64,000 nucleotides of DNA from Cellulosimicrobium marinum (lineage in GTDB: Bacteria; Actinomycetota; Actinomycetes; Actinomycetales; Cellulomonadaceae): positions 186,001-250,000 of the forward strand of contig NZ_JAJBZH010000005.1 in assembly GCF_020551945.1 (NCBI RefSeq). The letters run 5' to 3'. The notes under the pieces are model-generated. The model was not told the DNA's origin and made no database searches. It saw only the letters and a list, made by a program, of their open reading frames with translations. Positions within the stretch are counted from its first letter, which is position 1. Each line of letters begins with the position of its first letter. Below, in pieces: positions 57,338 through 63,543 of the stretch. Both the position numbers and the translations under genes were made by a program.

Positions 57338-58707
57338 GGCGCCCGACCGCCGCCGGGACCGAGGCGAGCGAGGAGGCGAGCGAGGAGACCGGGCGGGGTT
57401 CGCGCGTCGGGCACCGGGCCTGGCTGCCCGTCGCCCTGACGATGTTCGCCGTCGCGTGGGGCGGGAACGAGTTCACGCCCCTGCTCGTCATGTACCGCGA
57501 GGTGGGGCACTTCTCGGCCGTCACGGTCGACGCCCTGCTCGCCGCGTACGTGCTCGGCATCGTCCCGGCGCTGCTGCTCGGCGGGCCGCTGTCCGACCGG
57601 TACGGACGCCGCCCCCTGCTCCTGCCCGCGGCACCCGTCGCGCTCGCTGGGTCGCTCGTGCTCGCGGCGGGGGAGTCGTCGGCCGCGCTCCTCGCCGTCG
57701 GGCGCGTGCTGTGCGGGGTGGCGATCGGGCTCGTCATGGCCGTCGGGACCACCTGGGTCAAGGAGCTCGGCGACGCCACCGCGCGCGCGACCGGCGTTCC
57801 CGACGGCGGCTCCGCCCCCCGGCGCGCGGGCCTCGCCCTCACGCTGGGGTTCCTCGTCGGCGCCGGCGTCGCCGCCGTGCTCGCGCAGTGGGCGCACTGG
57901 CCCACGCACCTCGCCTACGTGCTGCACGCGGCGCTCGCGGCCGTCGCGGGGGTGTGGGTGCTGCGCGTCCCCGAGACCCGGTTCCCCATGGTGCCCGACG
58001 GCGCCCGGCCGGCCCGGCTGCTCGACGACCTCCGCGTCCCCGCGGTCGCACACCGGCGGTTCCTGCGCGTCGTCGTCCCCGTCGCGCCGTGGGTGTTCGG
58101 GTGCGCGGGCAGCGCCTATGCCGTGCTCCCCGGACTTGTCGCCGACACCGCCGACGGCGCACCCATCGCCTTCTCCGGGCTCATGACCGTCCTGGGGCTC
58201 GGGTGCGGCGTCGGGATCCAGGTGCTCGGCCGGCTCATCGACACCCGGCGCAGCGCGCGGGCATCCGTCGTGGCGATGGTGATCGTCGTCCTCGGCATGG
58301 GACTCGGCGCCCTCGCGAGCGCACGCCTCGACCTCCCGACCGCGCTCGCCGCGGCCGCCGTCCTCGGCGCCGGGTACGGGCTCGCGCTCGTCGCCGGGCT
58401 CAGCGAGGTCCAGCGCATCGCCACACCCGACGACCTCGCCGGCCTCACCGCCGTGTACTACTCGCTCACCTACCTCGGGTTCTTCGTGCCCGTGGCGCTC
58501 GCCGCGCTCTCCGTGCGGTGGGCCTACACGCAGATGTTCCTCGGCGGGCTGGTCGTCGCCGCGCTGTGCCTGGTGGTCGTCGCCTGCGCGTGGCGCGCGC
58601 ACCTGCCGACGGGGGAGACCGACGTCGCGGTCGATGCCGCCGAGGAGACGGACCGCACAGCCCCGACCGGGGCAAACGGTGCGCTCGACGAGGCGCGGAT
58701 GGGGTAG
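57334..58707 (+). CDS. MFS transporter
   Basis: Major facilitator superfamily permease of 457 residues with about 12 membrane helices. The family loop between helices 2 and 3 is GGPLSDRYGRRPLLL; helix 1 is ALTMFAVAWGGNEFTPLLVMYR. A soluble N-tail of about 25 residues contains a duplicated EASEEASEE segment from a direct repeat. GTG 57334 overlaps the GntR stop. Likely controlled by that regulator; the GNEFTPLL start is seen in many actinobacterial MFS efflux-type proteins, but the substrate is unknown. Confidence 0.92.
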   Translation: MRRPTAAGTEASEEASEETGRGSRVGHRAWLPVALTMFAVAWGGNEFTPLLVMYREVGHFSAVTVDALLAAYVLGIVPALLLGGPLSDRYGRRPLLLPAAPVALAGSLVLAAGESSAALLAVGRVLCGVAIGLVMAVGTTWVKELGDATARATGVPDGGSAPRRAGLALTLGFLVGAGVAAVLAQWAHWPTHLAYVLHAALAAVAGVWVLRVPETRFPMVPDGARPARLLDDLRVPAVAHRRFLRVVVPVAPWVFGCAGSAYAVLPGLVADTADGAPIAFSGLMTVLGLGCGVGIQVLGRLIDTRRSARASVVAMVIVVLGMGLGALASARLDLPTALAAAAVLGAGYGLALVAGLSEVQRIATPDDLAGLTAVYYSLTYLGFFVPVALAALSVRWAYTQMFLGGLVVAALCLVVVACAWRAHLPTGETDVAVDAAEETDRTAPTGANGALDEARMG

Positions 58708-58710
58708 AGT
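58705..58710 (+). promoter_or_regulatory. -10 box for tRNA-Pro
   Basis: TAGAGT fits TAnnnT, overlaps the stop of the MFS gene and lies 54 bases before the mature tRNA 5' end. A -35 element is not clear. Confidence 0.35.
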
Positions 58711-58764
58711 ATCCGAGGCTTCACGGGGTCCGGACCGCTCGGTTCCGGCCCGGTGATCCAGCCA

Positions 58765-58838
58765 CGGGCTGTGGCGCAGCTTGGTAGCGCACCTGACTGG
58801 GGGTCAGGGGGTCGCAGGTTCAAATCCTGTCAGCCCGA
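58765..58838 (+). tRNA. tRNA-Pro (anticodon GGG)
   Basis: A complete 74-base cloverleaf: acceptor stem CGGGCTG (58765-58771) pairs with CAGCCCG (58831-58837), discriminator A. The anticodon arm is CCTGA-CTGGGGG-TCAGG, giving anticodon GGG (reads CCC). The T arm contains GGTTCAAATCC. CCA is not encoded. The gene marks the left edge of a lower-GC island carrying two reverse transcriptases. Confidence 0.97.
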
Positions 58839-58842
58839 CAAG

Positions 58843-58879
58843 CAACTCGATGAGCGTGAGCTCGTCGAGTTGTTGTTTT
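58843..58879 (+). terminator. Intrinsic terminator of tRNA-Pro
   Basis: A 13-bp stem (58843-58855 with 58860-58872, one T-G pair) closes a GTGA loop and is followed by TTGTTTT. It is the only classical stem-plus-T-tract terminator in the window and stops tRNA transcription before the defence genes. Confidence 0.85.
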
Positions 58880-58916
58880 CTGGGACGATTTCGCAGTTTC
58901 TGGGACGATTTCGCAG
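58877..58916. repeat. Perfect 20-bp tandem duplication
   Basis: TTTCTGGGACGATTTCGCAG occurs twice head-to-tail (58877-58896, 58897-58916), between the tRNA terminator and drt3a. It could be a duplication scar at the island edge, a recombination site or part of the drt3a regulatory region. No third copy was noticed at the right end of the island. Confidence 0.85.
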
Positions 58917-58954
58917 ATTGAAAGATCCTCATTGTAATGACGCTAGGGGATGCG

Positions 58955-60295
58955 ATGGAGCAGGGGTTCTCGCCGTCAGGCCTGCGACGTTTGTGGGACC
59001 TTGAGACGCGAAAGGGAAAGGACCTCCTTCCGCTGTTCCCAGTGGTCGAGAAAGAGCAGGCGATCGTACGGGATCTTCGTGCTCAACTCCGCGAGGCCCA
59101 GTCTGGCAAACTCGCGCGACCGATACCATTAAGCGTGGAACAGTTGGAAGCCTCTCTCCACGGCGCGAGAGAGGCGGCCGAAAACACTCTTGTCGGAGCG
59201 CTCGATGGTACTAGTATAAGCCTGCTAGGAATGCTGGAGAATGGCGCGTTCCCATGGGGCATAGCCCAAAACGGCCACGCAAATGGGCGATCCATATTCA
59301 GATACGGTCAATCGGCAGAAGTCTACTTTGCTGATAAGCACCTGCAACGCGTAATCCGCGCTGCCACCGAGTCTCGATCGGTTTCGCGCCACCAATCAAC
59401 CTCGGGGCTGCTCAGGACGCTTGACAATCGCTTGCCAAAAACGGTCGTCAGATTCGACGTTTCCGCATTCTACGAAAGCGTCGATCACGACGTACTTCGG
59501 GCACAACTTGGTCGCACGGCTATGAATGCGACGCCGCGTCGACTAATCGATGGGTTCCTCGATGAATCCGCGGCATTGCTCGGCGTGCCCGTCGGACTTC
59601 CCGCAGGTATCGGCATGAGCGCCGCGCTAGGCGACCTTCTGCTAAGCGTCGTGGACACGCGCTTCCGGTCTCTGCCGAACATTCTGTACTATGCGCGATA
59701 TGTCGATGATGTCGTCATGGTGCTCGCAGACGGCATTCGCGGCTCCTTGAGCGATGATGCTATTCGAGACATGATCGCAAGCGAACTTGGCGCCATAAGA
59801 CTGAGGTCCCACCCAAAGAAGGAAGCAATCTTGCACCCGTCGCGCGGCGCCGGTGCTACGCAGTTCAATTTTCTCGGCTATGAGATTTCGATGAAGGACA
59901 AACTCAGCGTTGACATCACGCATGAGCGCGGACAGCGGCTCCGCAAGCGGATCGACCGCACCTTCGCCGCATGGAGTAATGCTAACTCGTCGAACCATGG
60001 GAAGCGCCGACTACTTCTAGACCGATGCCGAATGCTCACGGGAAACGTTCGCCTGACAAACAACAAGCGCAATGCGATGGCCGGCGTGTATTTCACAAAT
60101 CCCCTGATCACAAGCTTGAAGAAGTACCGCGGTCTCGACAATTACCTCGCGCACAAGGTGTCGCAGGCCAGTCTTCCGGCTGAACTCATGAAAGTGCTCG
60201 AGAGCCTCTCCTTCGTTGACGGCTTCCAACATAGAACAGTGTACGTCTTCGAGCCCCGCCACTTAAGTCGAATCAAAGGTGTCTGGAATGGCTAA
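58955..60295 (+). CDS. drt3a: Drt3a-type (UG3) antiphage reverse transcriptase
   Basis: Reverse transcriptase of 446 residues. Motif A is RFDVSAFYESVDHDVL (catalytic Asp168), motif B region GLPAGIGMSAALGDLLLS, motif C YARYVDDVVMV (YVDD at 249-252) and a thumb-start FNFLGYE (305-311). It has no maturase, endonuclease or protease domain, so it is not a group II intron or retron-only RT. Size, motifs and pairing with a second, larger RT fit UG3/Drt3a of DRT type 3. ATG 58955 has AGGGGA 4-5 bases upstream and starts MEQGFSP; ATG 58937 is in frame. Composition is clearly less GC-rich than its neighbours, a sign of transfer. Confidence 0.85.
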   Translation: MEQGFSPSGLRRLWDLETRKGKDLLPLFPVVEKEQAIVRDLRAQLREAQSGKLARPIPLSVEQLEASLHGAREAAENTLVGALDGTSISLLGMLENGAFPWGIAQNGHANGRSIFRYGQSAEVYFADKHLQRVIRAATESRSVSRHQSTSGLLRTLDNRLPKTVVRFDVSAFYESVDHDVLRAQLGRTAMNATPRRLIDGFLDESAALLGVPVGLPAGIGMSAALGDLLLSVVDTRFRSLPNILYYARYVDDVVMVLADGIRGSLSDDAIRDMIASELGAIRLRSHPKKEAILHPSRGAGATQFNFLGYEISMKDKLSVDITHERGQRLRKRIDRTFAAWSNANSSNHGKRRLLLDRCRMLTGNVRLTNNKRNAMAGVYFTNPLITSLKKYRGLDNYLAHKVSQASLPAELMKVLESLSFVDGFQHRTVYVFEPRHLSRIKGVWNG

Positions 60296-62327
60296 GGCGC
60301 GGCGCAATATCCGTAAACGTGACGCGCGCGTGCTGCTTAGCGAAGTTCTGCCGTACGAGATCCCTCCGAGTTTCTCTAATCGAGGGCTGTACGACTTCTT
60401 GAACGCAACCCAGCTGTCCGTCTCGCAAGGCGTGGCAGAGGCGCGTATGGTCGGGGCCGGGACCGAACTGCTGCTGCGGGTAATCATGGGATGGAAGGAT
60501 GGCCCGAAGCTAGCGAAAGGCCAGGGGACTTCCGGCAAGCAGCGCTTTCTGGGAAACCCGCACCCATTCACGGTGCCGTTCCAGTTCACAATACGGCACA
60601 ATCGGAACGACTATCGAACCCTCACGGTGCCGCATCCCGCAGCACAATTGGAGATATCTGCATTCTACGCACGTTATGCCGATCTGATCCTCTATCATAC
60701 GTCGCGTAGCAATTTTTCCCTTCGTCGACCGGCTCGCGTCGCACGTTATAGCGTGGTGCGTGATCGTGTGTTCGAGTCAAAAAGGGGTGGTCTCGATCCT
60801 GTAGAGGAGGATCACCGGGAGTACGATTGGATTCGCTCCTATTTCACGTACGAGAAGTATTCAAGTATCTTCAAGTTCTACGATTCGCGGGAGTATCGCG
60901 AGCGCGAACGCAGGTACGGCTATCTGGTCCGTGCGGACGTTGCCAAGTGCTTTGACAGCATATACACGCACTCAGTTGCTTGGGCGGTCCACGGACATGA
61001 CCTCGTCAAGTCCAATCTCAATCGATTGGAGGGCACCTTCGGTGACGATTTCGACCGCCTAATGCAGCGGCTGAATCATCGCGAGACTAGCGGGATCACC
61101 ATAGGTTCTGAGTTGTCCCGGATCTTCGCTGAGATAGTCCTTCAAGCGGTCGACGTCGACGTCGAAAGAGAACTTGACTCCCACGGGTTACGATTCGGCG
61201 TCGACTATGATGTCCTTCGATATGTAGATGACTACTTTATTTTCCTGGCGGATGAACACAACAAGAGCCGCGTGCTCGATACACTCGCGCGGCATCTCCG
61301 GCGCTACAAGTTGCACTTGAATGCTGCGAAACAAGAGGGTGAGTACACTCCTTGGCTTTCGCCACTGACGGTGGCAAAGCAACGAGTTGCAAAGCTAGTA
61401 CGTAAGTCGGTAAAGAGGGGTCGGGGTTCCGCGGGGAAAGACGCTCTTGCGCGTCCTCGCGCCGACGTGGAACGCCTTAGCATTGGCTACAAGGCTGTGC
61501 TCATCGACACTGGAGTCGGGCACCACGAGCTCGCGAATTATACTCTTGCGCAGGTCGAGTGGGCGGTGGAGCGGCTTATCAGATTCTCTCAGAGTGAGGT
61601 CGAGCGTGCGGCCGGAATGTCGCCCACTGAGCGAGTGGAGCATGTAGGCGCAGTCGTGGATGCGCTCCTTGGAGTGATGGAGTTCGCGTTCTTCGCATAC
61701 TCGGGTGCTCCTCGTATGAGCCCAACCGTCAAGATCGCGCGGATCATGAGTTCAATTGTTCGCTTCGGCCGTGAAGGGTTTGTTCTTTCGCACGACCGCG
61801 AGCGCATCGAAGCGGCTGCGGGTTCCGAGGTGGTGGCGCAGATGAGGCGCCTGGCTGGTTCGGATCCCGACGCCGTAACTGCAACGTTATTGGATTGCGT
61901 GTCGTTTCTCGGGTCGGAGCACGTTCTGGACGAGGTAACGATGATCCAACTCCTCGGCTTCAGGGAGGCCGGGACGAGGCTAGAGCCGCCCGGGAGTATG
62001 AACGCCTTTCTGCTTTTCAGTATACTGATGCACACTCAAGGCGCTCAGTCATATTCATCGATTGTCGAGTCGTCGCTGCGTTGGGCGACCGGGCTTCTGG
62101 AGAGAGAGCCGAATGACGCAGAGCGCGCTATCGTGAGCCTGAACTTGCTCTCGTGCCCTTTCGTGGACGACGAGTTGAAGCAGCGGGTCGCAGGAGCTTA
62201 CGGGGTGTCGTCGTCCTCGGTGTCGGTAAGCCGCTTCGGAAGCGATGGCCCTCTAGGTAACGTCAGCTGGACGGGGTTTGATCTTTATGATGCGTTGCAG
62301 CGGAAGCGTCTGTACGAGGTATACTGA
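60288..62327 (+). CDS. drt3b: Drt3b-type (UG8) antiphage reverse transcriptase
   Basis: Second reverse transcriptase, 679 residues. Motif A is LVRADVAKCFDSIYTHSVAWA (Asp217), motif B region TSGITIGSELSRIFAEIVL, motif C LRYVDDYFIFLAD (YVDD at 312-315), then LNAAKQE. An N-terminal domain of about 190 residues precedes the palm, and about 350 mostly helical residues follow it with no recognised domain. The SIYTHS form of motif A is shared by several defence RT groups. ATG 60288 lies 8 bases after AAAGG and 8 bases inside drt3a, so the two are translated together. Expected to form a complex with Drt3a and an RNA for phage defence. Confidence 0.85.
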   Translation: MAKARRNIRKRDARVLLSEVLPYEIPPSFSNRGLYDFLNATQLSVSQGVAEARMVGAGTELLLRVIMGWKDGPKLAKGQGTSGKQRFLGNPHPFTVPFQFTIRHNRNDYRTLTVPHPAAQLEISAFYARYADLILYHTSRSNFSLRRPARVARYSVVRDRVFESKRGGLDPVEEDHREYDWIRSYFTYEKYSSIFKFYDSREYRERERRYGYLVRADVAKCFDSIYTHSVAWAVHGHDLVKSNLNRLEGTFGDDFDRLMQRLNHRETSGITIGSELSRIFAEIVLQAVDVDVERELDSHGLRFGVDYDVLRYVDDYFIFLADEHNKSRVLDTLARHLRRYKLHLNAAKQEGEYTPWLSPLTVAKQRVAKLVRKSVKRGRGSAGKDALARPRADVERLSIGYKAVLIDTGVGHHELANYTLAQVEWAVERLIRFSQSEVERAAGMSPTERVEHVGAVVDALLGVMEFAFFAYSGAPRMSPTVKIARIMSSIVRFGREGFVLSHDRERIEAAAGSEVVAQMRRLAGSDPDAVTATLLDCVSFLGSEHVLDEVTMIQLLGFREAGTRLEPPGSMNAFLLFSILMHTQGAQSYSSIVESSLRWATGLLEREPNDAERAIVSLNLLSCPFVDDELKQRVAGAYGVSSSSVSVSRFGSDGPLGNVSWTGFDLYDALQRKRLYEVY

Positions 62328-62329
62328 CC

Positions 62330-62470
62330 AAGCGTCCGGGCAACTGTTTCGGCAGACCACACACCAGCGCGGAGCGCGAGGCCCGGTTTAGCGCTCAGTC
62401 TCGATGGGGCGTGGCAACACGTCCCATCGAGATCGCGCATTGCCTTCTCGCTCGGTGCTGTTTCGGTTCT
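62330..62470 (+). ncRNA. Candidate DRT3-associated structured RNA
   Basis: Directly after drt3b lies a 15-bp stem (62399-62413 with 62418-62432, one G-U pair) capped by the GNRA tetraloop GCAA. Upstream, CCGGGC (62336-62341) can pair with GCCCGG (62381-62386), enclosing a region with the tract ACACAC (62359-62364) and a small GCGC-GGA-GCGC hairpin. GAGCGC (62372-62377) could instead pair with GCGCTC (62391-62396), giving a pseudoknot. There is no coding frame with support. I infer an RNA partner of the reverse transcriptases; the limits are approximate and the strand is assumed from the operon. Confidence 0.55.
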
Positions 62471-62649
62471 GATGAGATGTTGTGCGCGTCGGGCTCGGCT
62501 CACCGGTAGCCCGGTCGAGTGGACCGCGTTGCGTTCGGCTGCTTCGAACGTACGGACGTCGCGCAACGTGCGGAGCTTCACCCGCGAGGGCGATCGGCCT
62601 TCCCGGACGGGTAGCAAAGAGTGGGAGTCGTCCCCCGCACCGGAGACGC
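62471..62649. other. Non-coding stretch right of the RNA candidate
   Basis: About 180 bases without a supported gene. Short open frames exist on both strands but have no start signal, domain or codon pattern. The string CTGTTTCGG just before it (62458-62466) repeats 62344-62352 inside the RNA candidate. It probably contains the right edge of the island, but no copy of the tRNA-Pro 3' end was found. Confidence 0.3.
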
Positions 62650-63387
62650 GCTGGGCGCGGCGTCGCACCGCGACGACGGGCACCATGGCCGACACGTAGT
62701 ACTTCACCTTGTTGGTGCTGATGGCCAGCGCGTCGGCGATCTCGCGGTTGGTCCGCCTTGCGCGATGAGGGTGCGGATCTGGTTCTGCTGGCGTTCAGTT
62801 CTGCGCCGATGCTGTCCTTAGCGATCGCCGCCGGGTCGGCGGCGTCGAGCGGGGATCGCAGGTGCAGGTGGCCGCCCCCCGGGGGTCGCCCGACCCTCCA
62901 GTCGCCTTGGAGCTGCTCGACCCGTTGCGCGATGGGCCGGAAGCGGTCGTCCTCGCGGCTGGCGCTGCGGTGACGGTTGTCGTGGACGTCGACCAGGAGG
63001 TTCGTCCCGTCGCAGCCCCATCTGCCCGAGGAGCGCCACGCGGACGCACGAGCGCGCGCTCTCCGCGATGGAGGTCGGCACGGCGCGCCCGTTGGCGGGC
63101 GGCAGCACGAAGCGAATCGTCAGAGAGCCTTAGCGCGTCAGCGTCCGTAGTTCGGAGCGCAGGCGCTCGAACGCCTCGATCGCCGGTTCGAGGGCGCGGG
63201 CCCTCCTGAGCGCCGCCCGTCGGGTGTGTTCAGCGCGTCGACGGTGACCTGCTCGGCCCTCATCCGGGCCGAGCGGTCGGTGAGATCGCCCGACCGCAGC
63301 ACCGCGAGGACCGACCGCAGCGCCACCTCGGCATGCTCGACGTCGCCGCTCTCGTCGATCCTTGGCCCACGCATCCGCAAACCCCAT
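62650..63387 (-). pseudogene. Decayed sensor-kinase-like / LuxR HTH gene
   Basis: Pieces of one protein can be read on the minus strand in changing frames. In order they are: helices EHAEVALRSVLAVLRSGDLTDRSARMRAE, then RRAALRRARALEPAIEAFERLRSELRTLTR ending in a stop, then VLPPANGRAVPTSIAESARSCVRVAL, then a histidine-kinase ATPase end (RPIAQRVEQLQGDWRVGRPPGGGHLHLRSPL), then ERQQNQIRTLIAQGG and, after another shift, a LuxR-type HTH (TNREIADALAISTNKVKYYVSAM). At least three frameshifts and one in-frame stop show it is broken. The intact ancestor was probably an ATP-binding sensor protein with a LuxR output domain. Confidence 0.6.
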
Positions 63388-63543
63388 CCAGCGAGCCGGG
63401 CAACGAACCGAGCCGTCGCGAGGTCGCGAGAGGACGGCTGGAGGGATCGTCGCCGGTCGGGCGCGCGGCGTCGGACTCGATGCCGTGGGGCGGGCGGCCT
63501 AGGCTGAGGTGGAGCAGTCGGTGCCTACCTCGCGGAGGCCTTC

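Follow-up and report, generated by a model that had tools for sequence, protein, structure and literature searches.

The closest described relatives of the locus reported here are type 3 defence-associated reverse transcriptase (DRT3) systems, namely EcoDRT3 (PMC13174585; PDB 26cz) and the Drt3a–Drt3b complex solved as 9z6y. As given in the main text of PMC13174585, the reverse transcriptase (RT) Drt3a copies an ACACAC RNA into poly(dTdG), and its partner Drt3b builds poly(dCdA) with no nucleic-acid template; E22 and R241, together with R71, dictate this sequence, and synthesis is primed from Y666. The same text describes the C-terminal part of Drt3b as an alpha-Rep solenoid with a C-terminal tail, and reports that RecBCD restrains the DRT3 product in E. 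coli. We analyzed a 64,000-nucleotide (nt) stretch of Cellulosimicrobium marinum (contig NZ_JAJBZH010000005.1, positions 186,001 to 250,000), hereafter the window, in which a pair of RT genes lies next to a tRNA gene. The pair shares with both described systems the gene order, a putative downstream noncoding RNA (ncRNA), the ACACAC motif, YVDD in both RTs, equivalents of the E22, R71 and R241 gates, a C-terminal tyrosine at the priming position, and Drt3b homology that runs through the C-terminus. It differs in the position of the template, which lies 31 nt past the drt3b stop in the window versus 128 and 124 nt in the loci corresponding to the solved systems (L105 and L100, respectively). We read the window locus as a DRT3 anti-phage system that is apparently intact and belongs to the compact-RNA type, with a probability of roughly 0.88.

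Identity of the two reverse transcriptases

An earlier note on this DNA had described two adjacent, overlapping RT genes of about 450 and 680 residues that retain YVDD and the motif A aspartate, lack maturase, endonuclease and integrase domains, and sit in a lower-GC patch beside a tRNA gene. All of these points were borne out. Both genes are uninterrupted open reading frames on the plus strand, encoding 452 and 682 amino acids and overlapping by 17 nt, and both products keep YVDD and the motif A Asp. Searching Pfam at E ≤ 1 returned RVT_1 alone in each protein, with maturase, endonuclease and integrase domains not found. GC content is 0.555–0.576 in the three 1-kb bins covering 59–62 kb, versus 0.65–0.79 in the 58 preceding bins, and this patch begins just past the end of the only tRNA gene called by ARAGORN, tRNA-Pro(GGG).

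The assignment of the pair as UG3 plus UG8, that is, as DRT type 3, was confirmed by two independent libraries. The top PADLOC matches were Drt3a (1.1e-77) and Drt3b (7.1e-164), and the NCBIfam models NF041747 and NF041748 gave 239 bits (cut-off 200) for Drt3a and 517 bits (cut-off 350) for Drt3b. In addition, phmmer searches with the window proteins recovered the solved Drt3a and Drt3b chains (9z6y, 26cz). As the outcome that would speak against its proposal, the earlier note had named best profile matches to group II intron or retron RTs; the best matches were to Drt3a and Drt3b. It is scarcely credible that the pair represents common RTs of the group II intron, retron or diversity-generating kind that lie side by side by chance. 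Such an origin can draw on the presence of RVT_1 in both proteins and on weak scores against the group II model, but those scores (57 and 43 bits) are far from the NCBIfam cut-off of 300, scores for the St85 retron RT (22 and 21 bits) are far from its cut-off of 235, and Drt3a and Drt3b both exceed theirs. Rfam, applied to 58700–63000 up to E 1, returned the tRNA and no intron RNA (scr4677, at 17 bits against a gathering threshold of 41, was considered noise); diversity-generating repeats were not searched for. Based on the curated scores, the group II intron, St85 retron and chance-adjacency readings were rejected.

One statement of the earlier note had to be corrected, namely that the C-terminal part of the second RT carries no recognised domain. 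A profile of 35 Drt3b proteins aligned with the solved chains through the C-terminus, extending to the last residue (650) of 9z6y_H and to chain residue 774 of 26cz_A. Because this profile reaches the terminal tyrosine of both chains, the C-terminal part of the window protein corresponds to the known alpha-Rep region and tail. The window proteins are ordinary members of DRT3, and it is the RNA that makes this locus a variant.

Template, gates and proposed mechanism

In chain 26cz, the E, R and Y highlighted in PMC13174585 are found at 130, 349 and 774, a constant offset of 108 from E22, R241 and Y666. Alignment to the solved chains placed the equivalents in the window Drt3b at E27 (E22), R113 (R71), R281 (R241) and Y682 (Y666). 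To judge conservation we used plus-strand Drt3b frames of at least 600 amino acids and at least 190 bits, giving 110 loci. The other 14 of the 124 loci with a Drt3b-type frame were the window itself (L001) and L004, L107, L108, L112, L114, L117–L123 and L124, whose frames were split, short or low-scoring. The E22 column holds E in 106 proteins and D in 4 (L006, L102, L109 and L111, all of which retain ACACAC). Arginine occupies the R241 column in 110 of 110 proteins and the R71 column in 109, L005 having N. The Y666 column is Tyr in 107, the exceptions being the divergent L113, L115 and L116, and in 97 of the 110 the Tyr is the very last residue.

The ACACAC template of the window had not been placed by the earlier note. 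In the minimum-energy fold of a 153-nt segment (−74.9 kcal/mol) the hexamer is left unpaired, and the RNA region has an unusual stability (z = −4.57) that none of 200 shuffles matched. Setting aside the three divergent loci leaves 107, in which ACACAC occurs within 350 nt past the drt3b stop in 105, with 7.1 expected from dinucleotide shuffles. Counting ACACAC or CACACA, the figure is 107 of 107 (11.8 expected), and each of ten other dinucleotide hexamers was found in 3–16 of the same loci, where 4.0–14.5 were expected. In two Orbaceae loci (L078:7056–7140 and L086:7056–7140), CACACA replaces ACACAC about 77 nt past the drt3b stop. A script located an adjacent drt3a in 100 of the 103 loci with room upstream. 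Of its three misses, L042 is an artefact of the distance limit caused by overlapping open frames, and L019 and L054 have a drt3a-type frame about 1.2–1.3 kb away. Template and gates are co-constrained in the 107 non-divergent loci: all have an AC hexamer downstream, one gate is E or D, and the other is R. Since template and gates do not drift apart in the surveyed loci, the two independent templates would stay locked to complementary AC/GT strands.

The divergent loci are two-RT pairs on viral contigs (L113:1624–5234, L115:3396–6980 and L116:3431–6812), with PADLOC scores of 120–124 bits for Drt3a and 390–404 bits for Drt3b. They lack an AC hexamer in the downstream 350 nt, and in the alignment their C-terminal position is not occupied by Tyr. 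These loci are possibly a sister system with another template.

The published DRT3 mechanism likely applies to the window system. The genes, their key residues, the template motif and a RecBCD locus in the host are observed here, and the E. coli systems studied so far are the basis on which we infer activity, products, priming, trigger and outcome. In this scheme, the operon would yield Drt3a, Drt3b and a short RNA that starts just past the drt3b stop. Drt3a would copy the unpaired ACACAC, held between a hairpin and the closing stem, over and over to give poly(dTdG). Drt3b would alternate dC and dA without a nucleic-acid template, with E27 and R281 as gates and the last residue, Y682, as the start of the strand, and the two products would anneal to repeat double-stranded DNA. 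Host RecBCD would keep this DNA low until a phage upsets the balance, leading to abortive infection. The host had been expected to lack RecBCD. This proved wrong, as RecC (742 bits) and RecD (468 bits) are both over cut-off and adjoin a RecB-like frame, so restraint of the E. coli type could operate in this host.

RNA layouts and folds

What is new across the relatives is that an AC hexamer follows drt3b in 107 of 107 non-divergent loci surveyed but is carried in two RNA layouts. In the compact layout the template lies 24–82 nt past the drt3b stop (86 loci), and the window belongs here; in the long layout it lies 101–221 nt past the stop (21 loci). The survey is biased, since the best 80 of 495 relatives were kept for a query headed by the window, and its compact-to-long ratio should not be read as a census. 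Two changes of layout are needed in the Drt3b tree (103 rows, 100 with a layout, after exclusion of seven near copies, L018, L053, L064, L093, L097, L100 and L110) and two in the Drt3a tree (97 rows). The branch uniting actinobacterial and other compact rows has modest support (82) in the Drt3b tree, where several rows are long-branched. The solved Drt3b chains (26cz and 9z6y) correspond to L105 and L100, with 100% identity over the fragments of 280–283 residues compared, and both loci have the long layout; L105 falls in the long clade, as does L095, a close relative of L100. One Parapedobacter locus (L081, 7172–7320) sits among compact relatives in the tree and has its template 140 nt past the stop, as in the long layout.

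For the compact RNA fold, 63 of the 86 compact loci were aligned with MAFFT (alignment A3), the remainder being 5 actinobacterial loci and 18 with other spacing. Paired cells amounted to 97% in P1 (84% for its outermost pair), 94% in P2, 71% in P3 and 99% in P4. A kissing-loop pseudoknot, in which the segment after the P1 5′ strand pairs with the P4 loop, was 97.4% paired, and all six of its pairs changed on both sides. Its covariation score was 0.714; shuffles gave 0.310, with none of 500 reaching the observed value, and sliding the helix gave no more than 0.204. Two-sided changes numbered 81 cells versus 23 in shuffles (0 of 500). The weakest control was the number of pairs with two-sided change, 6 versus 4.8, which was reached by 25 of 500 shuffles. 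Because the structure was read from the same 63 sequences, the proportion of paired cells leans towards that structure, and the two-sided changes are the stronger evidence for the pseudoknot. A covariance model of the nested part of this structure (R1) was given 17 other compact loci from outside the actinobacteria and detected 11 of them at E < 0.001. None of the 21 long or 3 divergent loci yielded an RNA site, the long ones giving a single match on the minus strand at E 1.1.

The RNA model of PMC13174585 was, according to its main text, seeded on EcoDRT3 and its subgroup, and the word “pseudoknot” does not occur in that main text. A literature search retrieved no paper recognised as describing a pseudoknotted compact form, most subscription papers being beyond its reach. 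A compact-type DRT3 is also present on an E. coli plasmid (L004:1659–5400), where drt3b is annotated as two frames. Among 5426 E. coli genomes, 9 have a match to this stretch (7 at ≥ 99% and 2 at 90–95%), and by eye its RNA has an AC template and a complementary kissing helix.

Compact DRT3 loci of Pseudomonadota and Bacteroidota (for example, L015 and L048) resemble the window in the compact position of the RNA and in the order of P1, P2 and template, and differ in their Drt3b proteins, which are 28–35% identical to that of the window over the best segment. By eye, the RNAs of the window and of four actinobacterial relatives (L011–L014) share P1 (GCGY with RGCGY) and a hairpin before the template. 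The hairpin matches a rule described in PMC12632851 for DRT10, a system whose partner, in contrast, is a SLATT protein and not a second RT. Shuffling supported this hairpin in L179, L180 and L182 (0, 7 and 2 of 500 shuffles, respectively). The actinobacterial RNAs may also form a helix, P0, that crosses P1. Its strands read CCGGGC/GCCCGG in the window, CCAGGC/GCCTGG in L011 and L012, CCGAGC/GCTCGG in L013 and CTCTCGGG/CCCGAGAG in L014. The letters differ yet stay complementary, which suggests selection on P0. The pseudoknot partner lies in the P4 loop in Pseudomonadota and Bacteroidota; in actinobacteria it appears, tentatively, to lie just past P1.

Several results weigh against the reading of the window locus as an intact compact-type DRT3. 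The host RecB-like frame scored 498 bits, below the curated cut-off of 696. R1, built from the 63 compact relatives, was silent on the window, L013 and L014 up to E 10, and gave E 0.53 for L012 and 3.8 for L011; the fold proposed for the window therefore rests on few actinobacterial relatives, and their DRT3 RNA appears divergent from that of the compact relatives. In a duplex-energy test of P0 across 11 loci, between 45 and 860 of 1000 shuffles did as well as the real sequence (73 in the window, not significant), and the hairpin before the template is unremarkable in the window (277 of 500 shuffles). MAFFT misplaced the P0 strands of L011 and L012 when the five actinobacterial RNAs were aligned, so P0 was compared by eye. 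Due to these two shortcomings, unsupportive energy shuffles and strands that were not aligned, we call P0 tentative.

The silence of R1 and the divergence of the RNA, together with the deeper two-RT lineage (L113, L115 and L116) that has no AC hexamer downstream, are also what would favor a DRT3-like pair making another product, with RNA or gates working differently in actinobacteria. We consider this very improbable, because template, gates and terminal Tyr are kept in the window and in L011–L014, and because six further loci at the level of the order carry ACACAC (five loci) or CACACA (L183), and all six retain the E and R241 motifs and end in Tyr.

Our broader proposal, which we favor with considerable reserve, is that DRT3 RNA scaffolds fall into two or more classes whose distribution tracks the protein tree. 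In the compact class, which includes the window and neither of the two solved Drt3b systems located, a pseudoknotted RNA would hold the AC template. The pseudoknot would be a kissing helix formed with the loop of the terminal hairpin in Pseudomonadota and Bacteroidota, and in actinobacteria the pairing would have been rewired into one that crosses the closing stem. Template and gates do not drift apart among the loci surveyed.

Table 1. Coordinates of features in and around the DRT3 locus of the window
Feature	Position	Strand	Basis or remark
tRNA-Pro(GGG)	58765–58839	+	ARAGORN; variable slot bounded on the left by its 3′ end
Variable slot	58840–63493	none	DRT3 plus about 1 kb of sequence, then collinear synteny from 63494 (G112)
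Tandem repeat, two perfect 20-nt copies (TTTCTGGGACGATTTCGCAG)	58877–58916	+	directly 5′ of drt3a
drt3a	58937–60295	+	class 2 (UG3) RT, predicted copier of the RNA template; PADLOC, NCBIfam
drt3b	60279–62327	+	class 1 (UG8) RT, C-terminal alpha-Rep region; predicted protein-templated and protein-primed
drt3b key residues	E27, R113, R281, YVDD 315–318, Y682		alignment to solved chains
Candidate ncRNA region	62328–62440	+	downstream of drt3b; ends approximate
P1 5′ strand, GCGU	62332–62335	+	partner 62366–62370; by-eye comparison
P0 5′ strand, CCGGGC	62336–62341	+	tentative pseudoknot crossing P1; partner 62381–62386
P2 hairpin, CUGU-UUCG-GCAG	62344–62355	+	just 5′ of template; candidate template boundary; compare compact P2
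ACACAC template	62359–62364	+	unpaired in minimum-energy fold
P1 3′ strand, AGCGC	62366–62370	+	by-eye comparison
P0 3′ strand, GCCCGG	62381–62386	+	tentative; complementarity
Long terminal hairpin, loop GCAA	62400–62431	+	P4 position; minimum-energy fold

Genomic slot, range and implications

The DNA left of the locus and a block to its right are present in each of the 17 genomes searched within the genus. In the 14 relatives followed across the slot, synteny ends at 58839–58842 in every case, and it resumes at 64068–64091 in 13 of them and at 63494 in the closest, G112 (an additional G112 match at 63437–63492 is not collinear). The distance from the tRNA to the right block varies between about 2 and about 63 kb. 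In G116, 44 nt identical to the tRNA 3′ end recur near the far end of the insert, as expected for integration at the tRNA. PADLOC was run on 35 of 82 script-called slot frames and returned Drt8 (G124, 438 bits), Lamassu LmuB (G125, 482 bits) and PDC-M02B (G112, 365 bits), with further matches to LmuA, LmuC, ShosA and a methyltransferase in the slots of related genomes; 8 of 10 slot frames scanned singly gave no PADLOC match at 1e-15. From these contents, the 3′ end of tRNA-Pro looks like a defence hotspot in the genus. To the right of the RNA, at 62470–63490, three small frames were scanned and gave no Pfam match. A minus-strand stretch within this interval has, by eye only and with no tool support, the look of a decayed helix-turn-helix.

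Relatives at 42–52% Drt3b identity, from the best 80 of 495, occur in Herbiconiux (L011), Microbacterium (L012), Glycomyces (L013) and Curtobacterium (L014), and they share with the window the template, the gates and the last-residue Tyr. The window and these four loci form one clade with SH-aLRT 100 in both the Drt3a and the Drt3b tree. Counting the host's own genome, the cut-off was exceeded in 1 of the 221 genomes from the family, in 5 of 396 from the order and in 1 of 396 from a sample of the phylum. The order holds six further genomes with long matches, 4 over the NCBI cut-off and 2 below it. Actinobacterial DRT3 is rare but not unique. The suggestion in the earlier note that an actinobacterial case would widen the known range is therefore only partly upheld: the system is rare, at 1 of 221 family genomes, but the four named actinobacteria and the six further genomes of the order already carry relatives.

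Both the low GC relative to the host and the single carrier among 221 family genomes suggest recent arrival, and could mean that DRT3 is decaying or silent here, that is, recently acquired and not expressed or not assembled. The lack of Pfam matches in the small frames of the adjoining 1 kb or so, and the annotation of drt3b as two frames in the E. coli relative L004, point the same way. Both window frames, however, are full-length, and all key residues and the template are kept, so we regard decay or silence as improbable and retain the reading of an intact DRT3 system.

The locus is thus a new DRT3 system whose mechanism is largely predictable from published work, with a compact RNA and of an actinobacterial subtype. 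DRT3 is the reported case in which DNA synthesis templated by amino acids is coupled to RNA-templated production of the complementary strand. The survey of relatives makes a prediction testable, namely co-constraint of the RNA template and the protein gates, and the lineage of L113, L115 and L116 is a place to look for a different code. The compact class offers a smaller scaffold to study and shows that rebuilding the RNA need not alter the product code.

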